DNA of 64,000 bases from a virus. Below are positions 4,040 to 58,607 of the stretch, piece after piece. The position numbers and the translations under genes are program-made. Location: positions 1 to 64,000 of the IMG/VR virus record IMGVR_UViG_3300028558_000791; one strand, 5' to 3'. Below the pieces are notes generated by a model. It was not told the DNA's origin. It saw only the letters and a list, made by a program, of their open reading frames with translations, and did no database searches. How positions within the stretch are numbered: the stretch's first letter is position 1; every line of letters begins with the position of its first letter.

Positions 4040-4542
4040 AAATCATATTTCTTGACATAGATGGAGTGCTAAACTCAGAAGATTACGGGCGGTCAGAGTT
4101 CTATTTAATTTCTACTGCCGGCTTATCTGATGCTGAGATTATGTTGACATTCCATCATCATCACCTGGACCCTAAAGCTATTGTCATACTCAATGATTTG
4201 GTCAAACGTTCAGGCGCTGAAGTAGTTCTTTCTTCTACTTGGAGGGGAAGGTACTCTCCAGAAGAGATGACAGCGATGCTCAAGGATCGTGGTGGTGAGA
4301 TCACTATCACGGCAGCAACTCCCGTTCTGCATGGTAAGATTAACTCTTCTCGTATCCCTCGTGGTAAAGAGATTGCAGCTTATCTTAAGACATTACCCGA
4401 GCAACCAGAGTCATTTGTAATTCTGGATGACCATAACGATATGGCACACTTGCTGCCATTCTTAGTTCTAACTGATATGGAACACGGACTGACAGCGGAT
4501 GACGTAGATAAAGCTCTCAAAATTCTAAACCCGGAGAAGTAA
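4036..4542 (+). CDS. HAD-superfamily phosphatase of the Swiss-army-knife RNA-repair type
   Basis: 168 residues with all HAD motifs: FLDIDGVLNS at residues 4-13 (motif I, DxD), VVLSSTWRG (motif II), the RGKE region (motif III) and FVILDDHND (motif IV). LSSTWR is characteristic of the small HAD domains named for RNA-repair ('SAK') proteins, which act as nucleic-acid or nucleotide phosphatases. If so, it could remove 3'- or 5'-phosphates from RNA ends and would fit with the RNA ligase at 57963. The HAD call is firm; the RNA-repair role is inferred. Confidence 0.7.
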   Translation: MKIIFLDIDGVLNSEDYGRSEFYLISTAGLSDAEIMLTFHHHHLDPKAIVILNDLVKRSGAEVVLSSTWRGRYSPEEMTAMLKDRGGEITITAATPVLHGKINSSRIPRGKEIAAYLKTLPEQPESFVILDDHNDMAHLLPFLVLTDMEHGLTADDVDKALKILNPEK

Positions 4543-4543
4543 A

Positions 4544-5038
4544 ATGCATTGGTGTATGGATGAGACTCTGGCGGTTTTAGCGATGCTCCCATTCATCGGC
4601 TATTTCTTCCGCAAGTTACACGCATGGTATCATAAGAAGATGGGACATACCTGTCATGAGAAGCATTGTGATGACATTCATGTAGAGCATGAGGAGCATG
4701 AATTTTCCCCTTATCATATGGATGCTTCTTGTCGAGGTAAGATGCAACGAGTATCTGAAGCGGATATGGAATACCTTCGTGGCACTCCGGCCCCTCTACA
4801 TATTACGGTTCCAATTACTATTTGGGATCCTCTTTCCCAAGATGATGTGAGTGAGCGTTATGGGAATGACCTTGTTGTCTTCCTGTATAAAGAGCTGGCT
4901 GATATTGGTATCCTAGATATCTCTGAAGAGGAAGTTCATTGGTATGTGAATGATAAAGCTGAGCTTTGGGTTCAAGTTCGTAATAAGAACTTCTTCCATG
5001 ACAGCGAAACCTGTGAACATGGCTGGAGAATAGCGTGA
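4544..5038 (+). CDS. Hypothetical His-rich protein
   Basis: 164 residues. An N-terminal hydrophobic helix (LAVLAMLPFIGYFF) may anchor it. A His/Cys/Glu-rich section follows (CHEKHCDDIHVEHEEHE), suggesting metal binding. The C-terminal half looks like a compact alpha/beta domain. Starts 1 bp after the HAD gene. Confidence 0.6.
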   Translation: MHWCMDETLAVLAMLPFIGYFFRKLHAWYHKKMGHTCHEKHCDDIHVEHEEHEFSPYHMDASCRGKMQRVSEADMEYLRGTPAPLHITVPITIWDPLSQDDVSERYGNDLVVFLYKELADIGILDISEEEVHWYVNDKAELWVQVRNKNFFHDSETCEHGWRIA

Positions 5039-5199
5039 ATACTTATTCAAAGGCAGACCTAATGGTCGCGCTTGAAAGAATTGAAAAAGAATATCCTGCT
5101 GTATTCAGGCATTTCTTTCTAGCAGAATTGGAGAAGCGTAATGATTCCCGAACAAGTGATCCAGGATTGGGTCAAGAACAAGAGACGTATCAAGGATAG
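5035..5199 (+). CDS. Small hypothetical protein
   Basis: 54 codons from a GTG that overlaps the previous stop (GTGA). The product, beginning NTYSKADLMVALERIEKEYP, looks protein-like and helical. It overlaps the next gene by 59 bp. Supported by the GTGA junction used elsewhere here, but short. Confidence 0.4.
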   Translation: MNTYSKADLMVALERIEKEYPAVFRHFFLAELEKRNDSRTSDPGLGQEQETYQG

Positions 5200-5434
5200 A
5201 CTCAACCGTATCAAGAAGCGTCTCAAGAAGTTGCAGAAGCAAGAGAAACATTTTGAAATGCGTGTAAGGGCGATTCAGAAACATGAAAAAGAAAATCGTA
5301 AAGAAAATCGTAAAGAAGAAGCCTCAAAAGATTCGGCACGAAATCCAGACAGATTATCTGGGCAAAGTGTACGGGATGGAGTTTCTGAAGTTGGTTCCCA
5401 GGACAGTCAAGAAGGTCCGGGCAATCAAACGTAA
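5141..5434 (+). CDS. Coiled-coil basic protein
   Basis: 97 residues, dominated by a Lys/Arg/Glu coiled coil (residues 10-65). Ribosome site GGAG 8 bp before the ATG. The second half overlaps the phosphoribosyltransferase frame by about 150 bp, so either this gene has a low-complexity tail or the downstream gene starts later than 5283. Function unknown. Confidence 0.45.
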   Translation: MIPEQVIQDWVKNKRRIKDRLNRIKKRLKKLQKQEKHFEMRVRAIQKHEKENRKENRKEEASKDSARNPDRLSGQSVRDGVSEVGSQDSQEGPGNQT

Positions 5435-5768
5435 GTATCCCTTTGATGCCATTGCATTTACTGGATCAAGCGGAGCGGCTTTAGCCTATCCGCTTTCTTA
5501 TTTGCTTAAGCTACCTCTCATTCATGTTCGGAAGGGCAGCAGCCATTATGGTCAGGGAAAGATAGAAGGAACCATTTCTTCTAGGCGGTATCTTATCATA
5601 GATGACTTCATCGATACTGGTGCTTCGATACGGCGTATTGTCAAGGCAGTTGATTCTGAGCTTGATGGAGCGAAGCCGGTGGCTATCTGTCTTTATAGCT
5701 CTGACCGACAATCCTATTTCGAACACAAAGATACAAACATCCCCGTCTTCAACGTACCCAAGAAGTGA
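5283..5768 (+). CDS. Type I phosphoribosyltransferase
   Basis: 161 residues. The PRPP-binding motif YLIIDDFIDTGAS is near residue 105, with an upstream AFTGSSGAALAYPL loop and the flexible-loop region HVRKGSSHYGQGK, as in adenine- and orotate-type phosphoribosyltransferases. These join a base to PRPP. The substrate cannot be read from the sequence. The N-terminal Lys-rich 15 residues overlap another gene, and a later start such as the ATG near 5376 is possible. Part of the nucleotide/NAD-salvage theme of the window. Confidence 0.75.
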   Translation: MKKKIVKKIVKKKPQKIRHEIQTDYLGKVYGMEFLKLVPRTVKKVRAIKRKYPFDAIAFTGSSGAALAYPLSYLLKLPLIHVRKGSSHYGQGKIEGTISSRRYLIIDDFIDTGASIRRIVKAVDSELDGAKPVAICLYSSDRQSYFEHKDTNIPVFNVPKK

Positions 5769-5773
5769 ATTCA

Positions 5774-6130
5774 ATGAAGCCCTATATGCACGCTAAGAAC
5801 AGCGCCAAGAAGCACGGTGGTAAACCTGAAGATTATCAGAAGGTCCACGACTTCATTGACTCTACCAAGGCAGCTATGCCTGATATGAGGCATCGAGCTA
5901 TTCTACATTCGGCATTTGGTATCTTCATGGTTGAGCAGGTCTTCGGTACAAATATTACCAACTCAGAAGGTAAGAAGGTTTCTACTCGTGACTTGGCAGA
6001 AGACCATGTCATTGAGGACTTGGGATTCATTCCGACCATGGAGCACTGGCTGAAGAACATGACTATGCAAAATTGGATGTTTGGTGGTCGACGTAAAGAA
6101 GTGAAAGAACGTTTCATCAAGATTGATTGA
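5774..6130 (+). CDS. DUF6915-like protein
   Basis: About 118 residues. HAKNSAKKHGGKPEDYQKVH, then DSTKAAMPDMRHRAILH and SAFGIFMVEQVFG, match my memory of a phage/bacterial family (DUF6915) that often ends HVIEDLGFIPT. Role unknown. A GTG at 5765 overlapping the previous stop is an alternative start; ATG 5774 has AAGAAG at suitable distance. Confidence 0.6.
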   Translation: MKPYMHAKNSAKKHGGKPEDYQKVHDFIDSTKAAMPDMRHRAILHSAFGIFMVEQVFGTNITNSEGKKVSTRDLAEDHVIEDLGFIPTMEHWLKNMTMQNWMFGGRRKEVKERFIKID

Positions 6131-6133
6131 GCT

Positions 6134-6460
6134 ATGTCTACCAAAGGAATGTGGGAAATCCTAGTACCGACTGTACGTAGAGATGTACCAGGGAAGTATT
6201 ATACCACAAGGTATCACCGTGTTTGGGATGCAAAAGTTAGAGAGATTACTGGCGGACTAACGGTTATGGTTCCAGCTATTGGGCAATGGGTTAATCCTAC
6301 TACGAGAGAACTCTTTAAAGAAAGAATGATTCCAGTTAGGATTATGGCTACCAGAGTCGAGATAGAAGAAATTGTAGACTTTACTCTTAAGTATTATGAT
6401 CAGCTTGCCATCCTATGTTACAAGATTAGTGATGAAGTGATCTTAAAGTATCGGGAGTAA
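6134..6460 (+). CDS. Hypothetical protein
   Basis: 108 residues, beta-rich, with several Arg/Lys pairs and a segment VMVPAIGQWVNPTTRELFKER. Starts 4 bp after the preceding stop, in operon. No family or motif recognised. Confidence 0.55.
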   Translation: MSTKGMWEILVPTVRRDVPGKYYTTRYHRVWDAKVREITGGLTVMVPAIGQWVNPTTRELFKERMIPVRIMATRVEIEEIVDFTLKYYDQLAILCYKISDEVILKYRE

Positions 6461-6463
6461 GTT

Positions 6464-6949
6464 ATGTTTTTGCCGCTCGGCCCTGTTCTCTGGGTAAAAG
6501 AAATCATTCGCCTTTGGTTTTTAACTAAAGAGATTATCTCTAAAGAAGGTGTAGTTCATTTCAGACGCTATCGTTTGTTAAGCACGCCTTGGTTTAACAT
6601 CTATATTCACAATATTCTCAAGTCTGATGAGGATGCTCATCCGCATGATCATCCTTGGCACTTCTTATCTTTCATCCTATGGGGTGGATACACGGAAGAA
6701 TGGCGTCCAGCCTATGAGGATCGGATGTACCGAAATGGATTTAGCTTGTATATTTCTAAGAGATATCCAGCTACCATGGTCTACCACCACGCCAAAGACT
6801 TCCATAAGATTACTCTACTCAAGAAGAGTGCATGGACCTTGGTGTTTACTTTTGGTAAGCGCCGCCCATCTTGGGGATATCAAACGCCGCAAGGGTGGAT
6901 TGATTTCAAAGACTATCGAGATTTGAAGAACGAAGGAAAGTTACAATGA
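6464..6949 (+). CDS. Cupin-like phage protein
   Basis: 161 residues. AHPHDHPWHFLSFILWGGY at about residue 58 gives the clustered His ligands of a cupin metal site, and VYHHAKDFHKI later supplies further His. Similar short proteins occur in many phages with no known substrate. A hydrophobic N-terminal segment may associate with membrane. Overlaps the next start (ATGA). Confidence 0.55.
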   Translation: MFLPLGPVLWVKEIIRLWFLTKEIISKEGVVHFRRYRLLSTPWFNIYIHNILKSDEDAHPHDHPWHFLSFILWGGYTEEWRPAYEDRMYRNGFSLYISKRYPATMVYHHAKDFHKITLLKKSAWTLVFTFGKRRPSWGYQTPQGWIDFKDYRDLKNEGKLQ

Positions 6950-15885: not shown

Positions 15886-16704
15886 ATGATCATCGACTGT
15901 CACACTCATATAGGACGCAACGAACACATCAAAGCCACAGTCAAAGAGCTTCTCCAGTCCATGGACGCGGCTAAGATTGATAAAGCGATGGTGTTTGCCG
16001 GTGACCTAAATGATTGTCCCAATAACTATCTATTGTCTGAGGTGAAACCTCATCGTGACAGACTGTTAGCTGTGGCAGCCGCTCATCCTAATAAGTGGAA
16101 GAAGATGTCTGAAATCCAGCAAGATGCTGGTCGTCTTGCTGATCTCTATCAAGCCGCTGACATTGTGGCCGTCAAATTCTATACAGGATATGACCACTAT
16201 TATCCGGGTGATGCTGCTGTTGCAGAGTATCTAATGGATCTAGAAGATGTTGGTTGTCCAGCCATCTTCCATATGGGAGATTGTCTTTGTTCAATCAATC
16301 ACGCCAAACTTAAGTATGCTCAACCATTGGGCATTGATGAGGTGGCCGTAGATTATCCTGACATGAATTTCATCATTGCTCATATGGCATATCCTTGGCA
16401 GCGTGATGCGGCCGAGGTCTGCTATAAGAACAAGAATGTCTTCGCCGATATTTCTGGGTTCGTTTATAAGAACTTTGAGACGGAAGATAAGATCAAATTC
16501 AAAAAAGTATTGGATGAGTTTTTGGATATCTCCAGTAGCGATAAACTTTTGTTTGGAACTGACTGGCCCATCTCAAATCAAAACTCCTACATTGAAGCTC
16601 TGGATTGGGTTGCCACTAACACGACTAACAAGAAGGTTAGTGAGACGTTCACTCCACAGTACATGACCCAGAACACTATCAAAGCATTCAAACTCAATGT
16701 CTAA
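15886..16704 (+). CDS. Amidohydrolase-2-type metal hydrolase
   Basis: 272 residues. IIDCHTHIGR at the N-terminus (HxH metal ligands), IFHMGD mid-protein, FIIAHMAYPW (third His) and LLFGTDWP near the C-terminus (metal Asp) are the ordered ligands of the amidohydrolase TIM barrel (Amidohydro_2 family). The family includes decarboxylases and lactonases; the substrate is unknown. Overlaps the SpoU gene by 8 bp. Confidence 0.8.
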   Translation: MIIDCHTHIGRNEHIKATVKELLQSMDAAKIDKAMVFAGDLNDCPNNYLLSEVKPHRDRLLAVAAAHPNKWKKMSEIQQDAGRLADLYQAADIVAVKFYTGYDHYYPGDAAVAEYLMDLEDVGCPAIFHMGDCLCSINHAKLKYAQPLGIDEVAVDYPDMNFIIAHMAYPWQRDAAEVCYKNKNVFADISGFVYKNFETEDKIKFKKVLDEFLDISSSDKLLFGTDWPISNQNSYIEALDWVATNTTNKKVSETFTPQYMTQNTIKAFKLNV

Positions 16705-17311
16705 GCCGAAGGTAAGAACGCGCGGTGATATGGCAGCAATGTCTACTGGCCATCGAGAGGCCATGCAAGACCCTGAAGCTAACTACCGTGCCTGGCAACG
16801 TAATGTAACTGATCCTCTAAAGGAGAAGTCCGAAGAGGAGATCCGTCAGATCCTACAGGAAACTGCTAACCCTTTCGCTGTTTGTTTTGAGCATTGGCTC
16901 GGAGATTTCAATATGTCCACTGGTGTTAGAAATGCTAATGGATTCAATGCCAAGGAAATCTATTACATCGGTGACAAGAAGTGGGACCGGCGTGGTGCAG
17001 TTGGAGTCCATAACTATACGGAAGTACAGTGGATTCCGACTGTTGCGGACTTCGCCTTGCTGAGAGAGAAGTATACATTCGTGGGAATTGACAATGTTCC
17101 CGGCTCAGTTCCAATGGCGAATTACGAATGGCCTGAGAATACTATGATGATTTTCGGGGAAGAAGGTCCTGGTTTAACCACAGCGATGCAGGCTTGGTGC
17201 AAAGATATTGTTCATATTGAAATGTTTGGAAGTGTTAGATCATTTAATTGTGGGTCAGCTTCTGCCATTGCAATGTACGATTTCACCTCGAAATATAAGG
17301 CTCGGCAATAA
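16697..17311 (+). CDS. SpoU/TrmH-type RNA 2'-O-methyltransferase
   Basis: 204 residues. The C-terminal knot carries MMIFGEEGPGLT and SVRSFNCGSASAIAMYD, the motifs 2 and 3 of the SPOUT superfamily (AdoMet binding in a trefoil knot, with motif-1 Asn/Arg upstream). It methylates a ribose in tRNA or rRNA. In a genome with some 40 tRNA-like genes, a tRNA target is plausible. The N-terminal 60 residues are a phage-specific extension. Confidence 0.8.
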   Translation: MSKPKVRTRGDMAAMSTGHREAMQDPEANYRAWQRNVTDPLKEKSEEEIRQILQETANPFAVCFEHWLGDFNMSTGVRNANGFNAKEIYYIGDKKWDRRGAVGVHNYTEVQWIPTVADFALLREKYTFVGIDNVPGSVPMANYEWPENTMMIFGEEGPGLTTAMQAWCKDIVHIEMFGSVRSFNCGSASAIAMYDFTSKYKARQ

Positions 17312-17337
17312 TCATGCCAAGAATTTTTAAGAATACT

Positions 17338-17655
17338 GCCGCTTGACGGCTCCCATTCACATGCTCATACTGTGGTATGTAAGGGAGACGTGCAGGATAG
17401 CGTCCTGCTATTGAGATGGAAACTCAAGAATACTGGAGTCGCTACCAGAAAGCCATCCCTGCTTGGGGGTTTCGTAAGAAACAAAAGCCCGCTGTTTAGG
17501 ACAGCGATGTTTAAGTAAAACCATTACGAAAGTTGAAGAGTAAGAATCTACAATATAAGTAGTGTCCACATAGCAAAAACAAAAACGGACTACCCAGATA
17601 ACAACACAGATGTACAGACTTCGGTCTCATCGCAGAAACGGGTTAAGCCGTATCC
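17338..17655 (+). ncRNA. Candidate large structured RNA
   Basis: A 375-bp gene-free stretch with at least eight local hairpins: GCCG/CGGC 17338-17350, CTCCC...GGGAG enclosing CATAC/GTATG, GCAGGA/TCCTGC ~17391-17408, TTGAG/CTCAA, CTGG/CCAG, GTTTC-GTAA-GAAAC (GNRA loop), CGCTGT/ACAGCG ~17490, and AGAC-TTCG-GTCT (UUCG loop). TTTCGTAA near 17471 can also pair with TTACGAAA near 17524, a possible pseudoknot. A promoter-like TTGACG-17-CATACT overlaps the start. No Rfam family recognised. Confidence 0.55.
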
Positions 17656-17686
17656 TTTTATTCGGAATTCAAAATTGAGAAAGAAC

Positions 17687-17995
17687 ATGTCAGAATTAGA
17701 TCAAGACTTCAATAGTCTCGTGGAGCAGATCAATGCCAAGATCAAAGAGTCTGCCGCGGCATTGCAAGAAGCAAATGCTCTTGCTACTAAGGCCGGCCTC
17801 CCCACTTTGTTTTATTCTCAGTTCACTAGAGAGAACATGCAGTATGACAATCGTTATGCTGAGCCACCTCTCTCTAAAGAAGAACTCAATGAGAAGTGCC
17901 GGGAGATTGAAGACAAGCTTAATCTGATTGATGTTGGTCCACTTGAAGCCGCGATGGGTGATGGTGGTTGGTCAACCTCTTCCTCTTACTGCTGA
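17687..17995 (+). CDS. Hypothetical protein, paralogue of the 6946 gene
   Basis: 102 residues: helical N-terminus (VEQINAKIKESAAALQEANAL) and a tail ending GGWSTSSSYC like the 6946-7410 product. ATG 17687 follows GAGAAAGAAC; an upstream TTG at 17675 is unlikely. Function unknown. Confidence 0.6.
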   Translation: MSELDQDFNSLVEQINAKIKESAAALQEANALATKAGLPTLFYSQFTRENMQYDNRYAEPPLSKEELNEKCREIEDKLNLIDVGPLEAAMGDGGWSTSSSYC

Positions 17996-18431: not shown

Positions 18432-18745
18432 AAATGAAGACCGATAACCGTCGTGTGTATCCTGATGCATCTCGTCAACCCCGTCACTTGGATGCACTTC
18501 GTAAGGAAGGCGTCAGGGAACGCCAGGAAGCTTATGATAAGCTGACCTTGGATGAGAAGCTTGCAAAGCTTCCGCCTGAGCCTCATGCTGCAAAGCAGCG
18601 TGCTCGTTTGCTGGCCCTGAAGAACAAGAAGGCTCAACCGAAGCAGGAAGAACCCGCTTTGGTTCCAGGTGAACTGCAAGTCGTTATTGCAGACACTTCT
18701 CCGAAAACCAAGACACAAAAGAAGTACATGAAAGGTGCTAAGTGA
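18428..18745 (+). CDS. Basic hypothetical protein
   Basis: 105 residues, Lys/Arg-rich, with a central helical region (RQEAYDKLTLDEKLAKLPPE). Overlaps the Nudix stop (ATGA). No family recognised. Confidence 0.55.
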   Translation: MKMKTDNRRVYPDASRQPRHLDALRKEGVRERQEAYDKLTLDEKLAKLPPEPHAAKQRARLLALKNKKAQPKQEEPALVPGELQVVIADTSPKTKTQKKYMKGAK

Positions 18746-18746
18746 A

Positions 18747-19472
18747 ATGAAACTGTTTAATCTTGCTATGGTCGTGATGTTGTCTGTTTCCAGTGTTGCC
18801 GTCGTTGGCTGTGATGTCAACAAGCACATGGAAGACGTTGGCTTCAAGCAGGGAGAGAATCCTGTGGAGAAGGGCACTATCAAGTATGATGGCCTGGTTG
18901 ACAGGGACGAAGCTTGCAATCGAGCATGGGCCGACTATGAAGCCAATCTGACTCGTCGTGGCCAGATGATTCCCCAGGTTGTGGCAGTTGTTCGTGCACA
19001 GTCTGCCAATGAGTCTTCGACTCTCGTTGCAATTCAACAGGCCCAGGCCAATGCAACTCGACCTGAGATCAAGCTCGATACGTCCAAGGGCGACATGGAA
19101 GACCCCGATAAGGTCAAGGCTTTCCAACAGGCTCAGGGTACTCTTGGTACTCAGTTGAGTCGCCTGATGGTTCAGGCTCCTGCTCAGTTCCCGACCCTTG
19201 GTGCAAACCAGGCGTTCCATGATTTGCAGGTACAAATCGAGGGTACTGAGAATCGATTGCTTCGTGCTCGTGAGCAGTACAACAAGACTGTCGAAGCGTT
19301 CAATACTGACCTTCGCCATGTCAGTGGTAAGATTATCAACCCTGTAACGGGTCATGAGTTCAAGCCTCGTGTCTATTTCCAGGCGGATGAGGCTGATAAG
19401 GCTGCTCCGAAGCTGGACTTCGGAACCCCTGCTGCTGCTCCGGCAGTGACGGTTGCCCCTACCCACAAGTGA
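18747..19472 (+). CDS. lemA: LemA-family lipoprotein
   Basis: 241 residues. A signal peptide ends in a lipobox (VAVVGC, Cys-22). The body is a long helical domain with the LemA pattern: an N-terminal YDGLVDRDEA, repeated Gln/Ala-rich helices, and QIEGTENRLLRAREQYNKTV near residue 165, followed by VEAFNTDLRH. LemA proteins are helical-bundle envelope proteins of unclear role and often lie beside TPM-domain proteins, as here (20117-21382). The C-terminal ~35 residues are Pro/Ala-rich. Confidence 0.8.
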   Translation: MKLFNLAMVVMLSVSSVAVVGCDVNKHMEDVGFKQGENPVEKGTIKYDGLVDRDEACNRAWADYEANLTRRGQMIPQVVAVVRAQSANESSTLVAIQQAQANATRPEIKLDTSKGDMEDPDKVKAFQQAQGTLGTQLSRLMVQAPAQFPTLGANQAFHDLQVQIEGTENRLLRAREQYNKTVEAFNTDLRHVSGKIINPVTGHEFKPRVYFQADEADKAAPKLDFGTPAAAPAVTVAPTHK

Positions 19473-19872: not shown

Positions 19873-20109
19873 ATGTTTACTGTTTTGTTTATTATTGTAG
19901 CGGTACTTTTTGTACTCGCCTTAGTGTGGCTAGCTGTCAAGTTTTTTGGCAGCGGTAGTAGTTCTAGTTGGAGCAGTGGTAGCAGTAGCTACTCTAGCTG
20001 GGGCAGTTCCGATTCTAGTTCTTCCAGCAGCTCGTCTAGTTCCTCTTCGGACAGCGGCTCCTTCGGTGGTGGAGATTCCGGTGGTGGTGGCGCTTCAGGT
20101 GATTGGTGA
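19873..20109 (+). CDS. Membrane-anchored Ser-rich protein with Gly-rich tail
   Basis: 78 residues: an N-terminal transmembrane helix (LFIIVAVLFVLALVWLAV), a Ser-rich linker of about 40 residues, and the tail FGGGDSGGGGASGDW. Ribosome site AAAGGAC upstream. Third of four adjacent genes with this ending. Confidence 0.6.
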   Translation: MFTVLFIIVAVLFVLALVWLAVKFFGSGSSSSWSSGSSSYSSWGSSDSSSSSSSSSSSSDSGSFGGGDSGGGGASGDW

Positions 20110-20116
20110 TCATATC

Positions 20117-21382
20117 ATGAAAAAGTATCTCTCTATGTTGGTTGCCCTTGCGGTAACCCTGTTCGCTGTCAATAGTTTCGCTTGGGATCCTCCGGCATCT
20201 CCTGCTCCTAAGAGCTGGATTTCGGATAACTCTGGCGTTCTCTCGCCTGCTGCGCATGCCCGCTTGGATGCTAAGCTGAAGATGATTAACCAAAGCTCTG
20301 CTAATGAAGTTGCAGCGCTTGTTCTTCCGACCCTTGATGGGGCTGATATTGCCGATGTTGGCGATTTGACGGCCAAGTCATGGGGTGTTGGTAAGAAGGG
20401 ATTGGACAATGGTGTTCTCGTGGTTCTCGCCATGAAGGAACATAAGAGTCGAATCTCTACGGGTAAGGGTGTTGAGGGAGACCTCCCCGACCTGAAGACC
20501 AAGGATATTTTAGATGCTGCTCGCCCTTATCTTCGTAAGGGTGATGTAGAAGGTGCGCTTGGATTCATTTTCGATAGCGCTTCCAGTTCGATTGCAAACC
20601 ACAAAGCTGAAGCTCAAGCAGCCAAAGAAGCTGCTGCTAAGGCCGGGACTCAGAACCCTGTAACTACGACCACTACAACCACGACTACTGGTAGTACCAA
20701 GTCTGGTTGCTCTGCTTCTGGTGCAGGAGTTAGTGATGGTGGTGGCTTGATGTTACTGTTTGTTGGTGGTGCAGTTCTCTTAGTGTGGTATCTGGCTCGT
20801 CAACAGATGAAGCGCCGTGCGGCTGAAGAAGCTGAACGACTTGCCGCCGCTCAAAGAGCAGATGCTCGTAGGCGTCAAGTTGAGGAACGAGAAGCAGCCC
20901 GTAGGCGTGATGCAGAAAAGGCCCGACAGTTACACTTGAGCAAGCCGACTCCGGTTGTTCCAGTTCCTGAAGTTCCTCGTCCTGCTCCGCGCTCTGTTGC
21001 ACCCCCTCCTGTGGTTCACTACCCAGTGAATGCACCTGTTACTCATCACAAGCCTGTGACTCATCCAGTTGCTACTGTTGCAGTTGCTGCAACTGCTGTA
21101 ACGGCTGCCGCTGTTCTTGCTGAGCAAGAAGCTCGCCAGCATCGTGCTGAGGCCGATCGTCTTCGTCGTGAACGTGAAGAAGAGCGTAATCGTAGGCAGC
21201 GTGAACAGGATGAAGAAGACCGTAGGCGCCGACAGCGTGAACGAGATGAGGAAGATAGCCGTTCTTCCAGTAGTTCTTCTAGCTCCTTTGATTGGGGTGG
21301 AAGCTCTAGTGGTGGAGGTTCTGACTCTGGTGGCTTCGGTGGTGGTGATTCAGGCGGTGGTGGTTCTTCCGGCGACTGGTGA
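20117..21382 (+). CDS. TPM-domain (YgcG-like) secreted/membrane protein
   Basis: 421 residues. Signal peptide (KKYLSMLVALAVTLFAVNSFA), then a TPM domain (~25-165) with WISDNSGVLSPAAHARLDAKL and GLDNGVLVVLAMKEHKSRI, then a transmembrane segment near 215-232. A long Arg/Glu/Ala coiled region with Pro-rich linkers follows, and the same FGGGDSGGGGSSGDW ending as its small neighbours. TPM proteins occur with LemA in bacterial envelopes. ATG 20117 is chosen because it directly starts the signal peptide; an in-frame start upstream would be within the previous gene. Confidence 0.8.
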   Translation: MKKYLSMLVALAVTLFAVNSFAWDPPASPAPKSWISDNSGVLSPAAHARLDAKLKMINQSSANEVAALVLPTLDGADIADVGDLTAKSWGVGKKGLDNGVLVVLAMKEHKSRISTGKGVEGDLPDLKTKDILDAARPYLRKGDVEGALGFIFDSASSSIANHKAEAQAAKEAAAKAGTQNPVTTTTTTTTTGSTKSGCSASGAGVSDGGGLMLLFVGGAVLLVWYLARQQMKRRAAEEAERLAAAQRADARRRQVEEREAARRRDAEKARQLHLSKPTPVVPVPEVPRPAPRSVAPPPVVHYPVNAPVTHHKPVTHPVATVAVAATAVTAAAVLAEQEARQHRAEADRLRREREEERNRRQREQDEEDRRRRQRERDEEDSRSSSSSSSSFDWGGSSSGGGSDSGGFGGGDSGGGGSSGDW

Positions 21383-50072: not shown

Positions 50073-50149
50073 GGGTCTTTTGATGTAAAGGCTGGCCTCT
50101 AGACTTTAGTGCTAGAGGACATCGGGTTCGACTCCCGAATGATCCGCCA
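50073..50149 (+). tRNA. tRNA-like, apparent anticodon TTA
   Basis: T arm TCGGG-TTCGACT-CCCGA, ATGATCC, G, CCA; 5' strand GGGTCTT pairs 6 of 7. Anticodon stem CTCTAG/CTAGAG around ACTTTAGTG; centred, the loop is CTTTAGT with TTA at 34-36, which would read UAA stop. The D arm is poor. Probably not a working suppressor. Confidence 0.55.
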
Positions 50150-55843: not shown

Positions 55844-56566
55844 ATGCAAGCTACTACCGTTGCCGCTCAAGGCACTGCTGAGACGAAGTTCAATCAAGTG
55901 ACGTTTAGCGTTCATTTGACTGAAGAAGCGCAGACCGTTCCTAATGCCAAGAACAAATTGGGATTGGCAATACTTGGGCTCAATGAAGCTCTTGATGAAG
56001 TGAAGAAGGAATTAGGATTGGAGTTTGTAAAGAACTCAGTCCGTACATCATCCAGTACCCAAGAGAACTGGGAGTACGTTGGTAAGAACAATACTCGCGA
56101 ACTCAAAGGATATACGATGAGTTATTCTCTGGCGTTCAGTATTAGTGATTTGGATAAGGTTTCTAAGGTCTATGATGCTTTAACTTCTATTCCAAAGGTC
56201 AGGGTGTTACCGCCAGCATTTAGTCTCAAGAATCATGACCGTCTCAACAAGCGTGCTCTCAAAGCTGCTCAGAAGAAAGTCGAAGAACGTTTCGCTATGG
56301 AGTGTGAGATTTTGGGTCTTGTCCCAGCAGATTTCGAAATTGCCAGTTGGGAAACTAGTTACAGCGATTCTCAACGCTCTGATCGAGTTGCTAAGATGTC
56401 AATGCGTTCTGTCGCTCCTATGGCAGGAGCACAGAATTATTCGTCTACTGACATCAATATTATTGAATCAGCAGCAGCACCACATGAACCTGCAATTGGA
56501 TTCACCGTTGGCTTAGCCAGCGTTACCGTCAATCTTGAAATAGGATATGTTCGTAAGGCGCGTTGA
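55844..56566 (+). CDS. SIMPL-domain (DUF541) protein, copy 1
   Basis: 240 residues. Opening VAAQGTAETKFNQVTFSVHL and GYTMSYSLAFSISDLDKVSKV follow the SIMPL/DUF541 pattern (TxxGxGxxxxxxDxAxxxxxV; Y.....VxVxDLxKV). A paralogue lies at 57277. No signal peptide is evident, so both may be cytosolic. The two flank the RNase P RNA gene. Confidence 0.7.
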   Translation: MQATTVAAQGTAETKFNQVTFSVHLTEEAQTVPNAKNKLGLAILGLNEALDEVKKELGLEFVKNSVRTSSSTQENWEYVGKNNTRELKGYTMSYSLAFSISDLDKVSKVYDALTSIPKVRVLPPAFSLKNHDRLNKRALKAAQKKVEERFAMECEILGLVPADFEIASWETSYSDSQRSDRVAKMSMRSVAPMAGAQNYSSTDINIIESAAAPHEPAIGFTVGLASVTVNLEIGYVRKAR

Positions 56567-56898
56567 ACATGAGCTTAGCTTGGTCAAAGGATATGGAATT
56601 GGATCCTGGTACGTTTGGAGGTTCTCCGGCATGCCATGTTTTAGTAGATATGATGAATCACAATGTTATTCCTATTATAGAGAAGCATCGTGTTTTATCA
56701 TTCATCAATGATGCTATCTATCAATTCAAGTGGTTATCCACTGTGAAGGAGTATGGCGTCAAGGAGAGGTCTATGGTTCTGATGAGGGACGATATTCTAT
56801 CTAGGGTGGATCATATGCCATATCCTGCCAAGTTTAATTCACATCTGAAGAACGTGATAACTCACCACTTCAGACGATACTTGAAAGAAGAGACCTAG
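56563..56898 (+). CDS. Hypothetical protein, end overlaps rnpB
   Basis: 111 residues, helical, starts overlapping the SIMPL stop. Its last codons coincide with the 5' strand of RNase P RNA helix P1. No family recognised. Confidence 0.5.
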   Translation: MNMSLAWSKDMELDPGTFGGSPACHVLVDMMNHNVIPIIEKHRVLSFINDAIYQFKWLSTVKEYGVKERSMVLMRDDILSRVDHMPYPAKFNSHLKNVITHHFRRYLKEET

Positions 56899-57253
56899 AC
56901 AATCGCTCCCGTAAGGAGAGGAAAGTCGGAGCTACGTAGGGCAATTTGCTGGCTAACGGCCAGGCGCAGTGATGCGACAGATAGTGCAACAGAAAAGAAA
57001 CCGCCATGAATCCGCCAGGCCCGAAAGGGAGCAACGGTAGATGGTAAGGGTGAAATGGTGGGGTAAGAGCCCACCGCACCTATAGTGATATAGGTGGCAA
57101 GGTAAACCTCAGATGTAGCAAGCTAAATAGAGAGTGACTTGTCCGGTCAATACTCTCGGGTTAGTGCTGGAGCCATTAGGTAACTAACGGCCAAGATTAA
57201 TGATTGTCTCGATTTATAGACAGGACTCCGCTTATAGGGTGTCTTCTTTCAGG
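56882..57253 (+). ncRNA. rnpB: RNase P RNA, bacterial type A
   Basis: The conserved blocks occur in order: GAGGAAAGTCGGAGC (CR-I, 56917), AGTGCAACAGAAAAGAAACC (CR-II, ~56980), AAGGGTGAAATGG with GGGTAAGAGCCCACCGC (~57046-57077), GGTAAACCTC, TCGGGTTAGTGCTGGAGCC, and ACAGGACTCCGCTTATAG (CR-V, ~57220). Helix P1 closes the molecule: GAAAGAAGA near 56883 with TCTTCTTTC near 57244. This is the catalytic RNA that makes tRNA 5' ends. No protein subunit gene is seen, so it would use the host's. Confidence 0.92.
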
Positions 57254-57276: not shown

Positions 57277-57966
57277 ATGACAAACAAAGTTACTACCGTG
57301 TCGGCTCGTGGATGTGTCGTGACAGATTACGATACTGCCACTTTTACCCTTTCCTTCAACGAATTCGCCCCTAAAGCGAAGGAAGCAAAGTTGAAGTTAA
57401 AGAAGGGTGCGTCTAAAATTACTGCCGCCCTTGATGAACTCAAGAAGAGGGGCTTGGAGTTTTTGACCAACAACTACCGCTCTAACATTTCGGTTGCTCC
57501 GAATTATGTTTATGACCGTACCAATGGTGTAAACCGAATGGAAGGCCAAAAGGCTACCTATTCCGTTACTTTCCAGACTCCCACATTGGAGATGGTCAAT
57601 GAAGCATATGATGTGCTTTCTGAGTTGGAAGTAAATGAATACACGGTTAACTCCCCAACCTACTCTGTTAGGGCTGAGGCGCAATTCAAACAACAGGCAT
57701 TGGAAGATGCTTGGAAGGTAGCGCAAGTATTGTTTGCTCACCAGTGCAAAACGCTTGGGTTTGAAGCAGACAAGTTCTCTGTGGATAGCTGGCAGGTAAA
57801 CTACAGCGGTCGTGACCATGGTGGTTTCTCTAAGGGAGCTAACTATACTAACGGTCTCGCTGGTGGTAGCGCAGGCGGTAGTGAAGATGACGCCATCGAG
57901 TTGAATGCTGGTCGTGCAGCTATCGATGTCATCCTTACTGTAGATTACGTTCGTACCGGATCATGA
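57277..57966 (+). CDS. SIMPL-domain (DUF541) protein, copy 2
   Basis: 229 residues, similar to the 55844 product: VSARGCVVTDYDTATFTLSF, EGQKATYSVTFQTPTLEMVN, and a C-terminal AAIDVILTVDYVR. A Gly-rich loop replaces the divergent middle. Probably arose by duplication. Overlaps the RNA ligase start (ATGA). Confidence 0.68.
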   Translation: MTNKVTTVSARGCVVTDYDTATFTLSFNEFAPKAKEAKLKLKKGASKITAALDELKKRGLEFLTNNYRSNISVAPNYVYDRTNGVNRMEGQKATYSVTFQTPTLEMVNEAYDVLSELEVNEYTVNSPTYSVRAEAQFKQQALEDAWKVAQVLFAHQCKTLGFEADKFSVDSWQVNYSGRDHGGFSKGANYTNGLAGGSAGGSEDDAIELNAGRAAIDVILTVDYVRTGS

Positions 57967-58607
57967 AAATCAAACTTGCCTACCCCAAGATTCCCGATAC
58001 ACTAGACTGTCCACTCAAGCAGTGTATTGCATTTGAGAAGTATGATGGAACCAATATCCATTGGACTTTCATGCCGGGTGAGGGGTGGCAAGACTACGGT
58101 GCTCGACGTGACAGATATGCCATCAATACAACTGGTGTTAGAGCCTTTGAGGAAGCGCATCCAGAGTTGAAGGGTGTCCATACTCTATGGGATCAAAAGG
58201 ATCTTCTAAATGATTTCCTTAATGAGAATCCTAAATACAATACTGCTAAAGAAATTATTGTATTCACTGAGTATCTTGGACCCCATTCTTTTGCAGGTCA
58301 ACATGACCCGAAAGATGTTATCAAGCAATTAATTATATTTGATGTCCAAGTTGATGGGAGCTTAATTCCTCCTGAACAATTTGTAGAAGACTTCAAACAA
58401 TTCAATATTGCGAGAGTTGTCTTCCAAGGAAAGTTTTCTGGCCAACTCTTCGTAGATGTTCGAAAAGGCAAGTACGATGTCAAAGAAGGGGTAGTAGTTA
58501 AGGGCATTTACAACAATCAAATCTATATGGCTAAGATTAAGACTGAAGCCTATATGGAACGATTGAAGAACGAATTCAAAGATAATTGGAAAGAATATTG
58601 GGAATGA
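57963..58607 (+). CDS. RNA ligase of the nucleotidyltransferase superfamily
   Basis: 214 residues. Motif I is FEKYDGTNIHW with the probable adenylated Lys at 26, then RRDRYA (motif Ia), VFTEYLGPHSF (motif III/IIIa region), KEGVVVKGIY (motif IV) and MAKIKTEAY (motif V). The size and absence of DNA-ligase domains fit the RNA_ligase family. It seals 3'-OH/5'-P RNA ends and could reseal cleaved tRNAs or join permuted tRNA halves. Located 0.7 kb after rnpB in the same run of genes. Confidence 0.82.
   Translation: MKIKLAYPKIPDTLDCPLKQCIAFEKYDGTNIHWTFMPGEGWQDYGARRDRYAINTTGVRAFEEAHPELKGVHTLWDQKDLLNDFLNENPKYNTAKEIIVFTEYLGPHSFAGQHDPKDVIKQLIIFDVQVDGSLIPPEQFVEDFKQFNIARVVFQGKFSGQLFVDVRKGKYDVKEGVVVKGIYNNQIYMAKIKTEAYMERLKNEFKDNWKEYWE

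Follow-up and report, generated by a model that had tools for sequence, protein, structure and literature searches.

Comparative evidence for a pseudoknotted RNA of about 285 nt behind a SPOUT methyltransferase gene in uncultured jumbo phages

In the genome of an uncultured jumbo phage, a SPOUT-family 2'-O-methyltransferase gene (TrmH/RlmB-like; SpoU/SPOUT; 16697-17311, + strand) is separated from the next open reading frame, whose ATG stands at 17687, by a gap at 17312-17686. As an initial annotation had said of this stretch behind an RNA methylase gene, it is free of genes: it holds no + strand ORF of at least 60 amino acids. We wish to know whether the gap instead encodes a structured RNA and, if it does, what such an RNA might be for. 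Positions refer throughout to the window, by which we mean the whole stretch of DNA that was analysed, that is, the 64 kb at positions 1-64000 of a 480,838-bp record.

The folding energy of 17312-17674 has a z-score of -1.98, with 6 of 100 shuffled sequences folding as well, and that of the RNA core a z-score of -1.12 (28 of 200 shuffles). Judged on its folding energy alone, the window copy does not stand out: it lies near the shuffled range. The initial annotation had named hairpins no better than those of shuffled sequence as evidence against an RNA; the energies do fall near that range, but the homologues carry the structure, and a shuffle test alone would not settle the matter.

Five homologues were found in other jumbo-phage contigs, which we denote L002, L003, L010, L018 and G038, and nucleotide identity among the resulting six members ranges from 48.6 to 86%. 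L002 and L003 were reached via a methylase search of viral contigs, and their intergenic DNA aligns with the gap (81% over 318 nt and 74% over 108 nt, respectively). A covariance model built from the window copy and these two, R1, matched copies in L018 (166 bits) and L010 (106 bits), the latter divergent. A second model, R2, rebuilt from five members, led to the sixth copy, in G038, a 361-kb record reached through terminase (137 bits). Thus the copies of L010, L018 and G038 were each detected by a model built without the copy in question, and no positive record has more than one significant copy. A covariance-model search of the remaining records of the terminase scan gave no copy of the RNA; in the largest records scoring covered the best 40-41 first-look candidates, so that absence there does not amount to proof. 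The copies from the window, L010 and L018 had no blastn match among 50,697 phage records, a motif scan of genome contigs returned two matches, both unrelated, and motif scans of viral contigs returned no further family member. The RNA was found in one lineage of uncultured jumbo phages, with the proviso that the collections searched may omit near relatives.

Covariation in homologues, which the initial annotation had proposed as a check, is found in abundance. Since the nested helices guided the alignment, part of this support leans towards the structure, and the following figures should be read in that light: in the six-member alignment, with a structure of 73 pairs, 95.6% of cells are paired, as against 37-48% when the structure is slid, and 42 pairs show two-sided change, as against a shuffle mean of 16.2 (0/500 shuffles). 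The five-member alignment, with a structure of 61 pairs, gives 94.6% of cells paired, as against 36-49% with partners slid, and 29 pairs with two-sided change (shuffle mean 10.7). Diverged homologues thus exhibit the compensatory change that is expected of a structured non-coding RNA. Among the paired cells of the six members, G-U occurs 25 times and A-C once, and so the + strand is the RNA.

The predicted RNA, which draws on covariance models R1-R3, on covariation and on the excess of G-U over A-C, occupies 17378-17662 on the + strand, about 285 nt; the promoter described below serves to place its 5' end, and the U-rich tail, together with the last pairing that is conserved, its 3' end. In the interval first proposed, 17338-17655, the first 40 nt are promoter and spacer, and the tail extends about 7 nt beyond its end, so that bounds of about 17378-17662 are better.

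All helices lie on the + strand. The 5' part consists of six hairpins: P1 (17392-17408, GCAGGA/UCCUGC, loop 17398-17402), P2 (17411-17427, UUGAG/CUCAA, with all cells paired and two-sided change in three of its five pairs), P3 (17433-17448, CUGG/CCAG, loop bases 17440-17444), P4 (17457-17467, CCC/GGG), P5 (17469-17482, GUUUC-GUAA-GAAAC) and P6 (17490-17506, CGCUG/CAGCG). P5 is the variable one: it is absent in L002, has different letters in the remaining members, and shows two-sided change in all five of its pairs. The P7-P8-P9 domain follows at 17508-17581, with P8 formed by 17522-17527 and 17559-17564 and with a conserved internal loop, GAAAGU / AUAUAAG. The 3' domain, P10-P13 (17585-17651), is built from P10 (17585-17588/17648-17651), P11 (17592-17595/17640-17643) and P12-P13 (17609-17631), the last including the hairpin GACUUCGGUC at 17617-17626; it carries a conserved AGAUAACAACACAG / CGCWGAAAC loop. 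A U-rich tail (17653-17662) closes the RNA. A long helix between P2 and the 3' tail, suggested by RNAalifold, was replaced by the local P2 together with a pseudoknot of the tail, since L010 cannot form the long helix. The compact hairpins listed in the initial annotation are accordingly present, at 17392-17506 and 17617-17626, and longer helices come in addition.

Three long-range contacts also hold: a kissing interaction between the loops of P1 and P3; PK1, between the P4 loop (GCUU, 17461-17464) and AAGC in J5/6 (17485-17488); and PK2, between the P6 loop (AGGA, 17498-17501) and the first four bases of the 3' tail (UCCU, 17653-17656). None of these contacts entered the covariance models or the building of the alignment. 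A complementarity scan or inspection by eye brought them out, and they were counted afterwards; the counts are therefore those of contacts picked after looking. The kiss occurs as UAGC/GCUA, GGUA/UACC, UGAU/AUCA and UAAU/AUUA, and 4 of 720 permutations reach the pairing achieved with the own partner, the ties coming from near-identical rows. PK2 occurs as AGGA/UCCU, AAGA/UCUU and GGGA/UCCC; here 8 of 720 permutations do so when Watson-Crick pairs are counted, and 132 of 720 when G-U is allowed. PK1 occurs as GCUU/AAGC, GCUU/AAGU and ACUU/AAGU, one of its pairs being GC, GU or AU, and hardly varies, which makes its permutation test (360/720) uninformative. The pseudoknot that had originally been suggested, an 8-bp pairing of TTTCGTAA with TTACGAAA, is a different matter: the pairing exists (17470-17477 with 17524-17531), but it is at chance level, at least one such 8-mer pair arising in 36% of trials with the mononucleotide-shuffled region, and it is not conserved, since it depends on P5. 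The broader proposal of a large multi-hairpin RNA with pseudoknots is well supported by the comparative evidence. Comparison of sequences establishes a structured RNA at the gap, and it bears out the predicted fold, the strand, the tertiary contacts (PK1 being the weakest) and the constancy of the methylase gene upstream.

Just 5' of the RNA lies a sigma70-like promoter (17343-17371, + strand; TTGACG, a spacer of 17 nt, CATACT). Promoter-like hexamers stand at the same offset in four of the six members, namely in the window, L002 (TTGACC/TATATT), L018 (TTGATT/TATAAT) and L010 (TTGACA/TATTTT); L003 has no clear -35 at this position and is counted as unclear, and G038 was not scored. Since about 17% of chance trials on a 106-nt stretch of the window reach a score of at least 9/12, the weight of the promoter comes from its shared position and not from its score. 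At the other end, every copy finishes in a U-rich tail, with 6-10 T in 13 nt, and no strong intrinsic terminator is seen at the 3' end of the RNA. In five of six members, some 10-25 nt separate the end of the conserved structure from the start codon that follows, and in G038 the gap to the next gene is about 50 nt. The RNA of L003 and that of L010 are followed by a start codon after about 10 nt, which leaves no room for another promoter, and hence read-through must occur there.

Is this RNA one of the known large RNAs? Rfam 15, which includes GOLLD, ROOL, HEARO, OLE, 6S, SRP and the group I intron, gives no match at gathering score, in agreement with the earlier impression that no family could be recognised. 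Up to E=10, moreover, neither the window copy nor that of L010 has any match, and no sign is seen of the relation to GOLLD, ROOL, HEARO or OLE that the initial annotation had raised; the copies of L018 and G038 gave isolated matches below the gathering score (E 2.6-9.2), which are taken as chance. The open-licence papers searched for structured RNAs in huge or jumbo phages yielded no account of it. We regard the RNA as a new family among the large orphan RNAs of phages, a kind that is already known. GOLLD (RF01998), ROOL (RF03087) and OLE (RF01071) are likewise large and heavily structured, with intricate tertiary contacts, but they have no sequence or covariance match to this RNA and their architecture is different; GOLLD and ROOL are also longer than ~285 nt. 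The stable RNAs C and D of phage T4 are phage-encoded small RNAs to which no function has been assigned; they sit in a tRNA cluster and are much shorter than this RNA. Ornate large RNAs such as GOLLD, ROOL and OLE are carried by phages in some cases (PMC12286853), and their function is largely unknown.

The lineage encodes other stable RNAs as well. A full class A RNase P RNA is present in the window at 56887-57250 (RF00010, 272 bits), and RNase P RNA occurs in four of nine other records searched. ARAGORN reports no tmRNA in the 64-kb window, and a tmRNA gene lies elsewhere in the same record (G000:C1:170047-170403; RF00023, 142 bits) and in several relatives. Both are stable RNAs of the same phage records, but they occupy separate loci, and the RNA has no local similarity to either beyond noise. 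tmRNA in huge phages has already been reported (PMC7162821), and the terms "RNase P" and "rnpB" are absent from the main text of that survey. Sibling phages likewise encode a tmRNA and an RNase P RNA, so that stable RNAs can be counted among the lineage's equipment. The RNase P RNA of the window is flanked by two SIMPL (DUF541) genes (55844-56566 and 57277-57966), the second followed by a gene with an RNA-ligase domain (57963-58607). ARAGORN also finds 29 tRNA genes; the tRNA at 50073-50149, with anticodon tta, which reads TAA, is a possible ochre suppressor.

The genes around the RNA differ in their constancy. Upstream, on the same strand, the methylase gene is present in all six members, with zero to two ORFs between it and the RNA; ORFs intervene in L002, L003, L018 and L010, and in G038 the methylase stop codon lies within P1, at the start of the RNA. 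No search has turned up the RNA without the methylase, a co-occurrence that is biased, as most members were found via the methylase search. Among 18 records searched with a methylase profile, the methylase was found only in G000, G002, G003, G004 and G038, and G002 and G003 bear the methylase without the RNA, which is not found beside it even with filters off. Downstream, the six phages have five kinds of gene directly behind the RNA. In the window (17687-17995, + strand) and in L002 it is a small ORF, that of the window with no function assigned, followed by a Nudix gene; it is a MutT-like Nudix gene in L018, another type of Nudix gene in L003, and a DUF7227 gene in G038. In L010, a GIY-YIG ORF fused to the C-terminal part of a Nudix gene (5963-6532) follows an intact RNA, and a LAGLIDADG-like ORF (4231-5610) lies beside a duplicated methylase 3' end, both between methylase and RNA; the two ORFs are probably homing endonuclease insertions. 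Beyond the Nudix gene, the window has a LemA-family gene (18735-19472) and a TPM-domain gene (19946-21382), an order that, from the ORFs read, seems kept in L007, L008, L010 and L018.

We favour, with a probability of roughly 0.55, a separate RNA with its own transcription that would act in trans. In favour of this reading are the change of downstream gene between members, the U-rich tail, and the fact that L010 keeps the RNA intact next to a broken Nudix gene. At least co-transcription is favoured, on the other hand, by how closely the next start codon follows in five of six members and by the lack of room for another promoter in L003 and L010. A cis-acting leader of the downstream gene or operon, riboswitch-like or protein-bound, is therefore the alternative to be taken most seriously, although we think it the less probable of the two; PK2, joining UCCU to the P6 loop beside the ribosome-binding site, would then be the switch. 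Like large riboswitches and leader RNAs, this RNA has its own promoter just 5' of it and a multi-domain, pseudoknotted, aptamer-like fold of fitting size just before an ORF (five of six), and a Nudix gene or its remnant stands directly or one gene downstream in five of six, that of L003 being of a different type. Unlike them, it precedes genes that are not of one class, it has no Rfam riboswitch match, and no conserved expression platform is seen: by eye, neither an anti-Shine-Dalgarno nor a terminator alternative is conserved. Switching of that kind through the 3' tail is possible in L003 and was rejected for want of conservation. The idea of a Nudix riboswitch arose from the first five members and was weakened by G038, with its different gene and wider gap. 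A CsrA sponge, suggested by GGA in loops, was dropped on inspection, as the loop GGA is lost in L003 and L010.

The remaining explanations carry much less weight. It is improbable that the RNA is an extremely diverged form of a known bacterial RNA (6S, SRP, tmRNA, RNase P or another) missed by the Rfam models: the lineage does encode housekeeping RNAs, but its tmRNA and RNase P RNA sit elsewhere in the same record, and the searches and comparisons above found nothing beyond chance or noise. Less probable still is that it is a fragment processed from the 3' UTR of the methylase mRNA. The constant upstream methylase and the overlap of P1 with its stop codon in G038 would fit, but four members, the window copy included, have a promoter-like site between methylase and RNA, and L002, L003, L018 and L010 have other ORFs there. 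We give almost no credence to a DNA-level element (an origin, packaging or recombination site) or to chance hairpins, with which the near-shuffled folding energy of the single sequence would agree, since covariation contradicts both: the two-sided changes, the slid controls and the G-U excess are all at odds with them.

Under the favoured reading of a trans-acting RNA, an RNA of ~285 nt would be transcribed from its own sigma70-like promoter. Its six 5' hairpins would be tied together by the P1-P3 kiss and the local P4 pseudoknot, the P6 loop would capture the 3' end of the RNA, and the two long 3' domains would present their conserved internal loops. Such an RNA would be stable, and most likely the RNA component of a ribonucleoprotein in which these loops would be the binding sites. 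The adjacent SPOUT 2'-O-methyltransferase might modify the RNA or work with it, which is a guess from gene order; the link may also be one of inherited gene order. A bolder version, in which the phage carries a housekeeping-like, pseudoknotted RNA-protein scaffold beside its tmRNA and RNase P RNA, as the dedicated substrate or partner of the methyltransferase upstream, is speculative, and we put it below the leader in likelihood.

The predicted fold is detailed enough to be taken into probing, cryo-EM and a test of methylation by the enzyme of the neighbouring gene. The present analysis adds a well-supported family, whose kissing-loop and pseudoknot contacts are resolved by covariation, to the small number of large orphan RNAs in phages. 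That it occurs in a lineage with an RNase P RNA and a tmRNA of its own is relevant to the question of how far phages supply their own RNA machinery.
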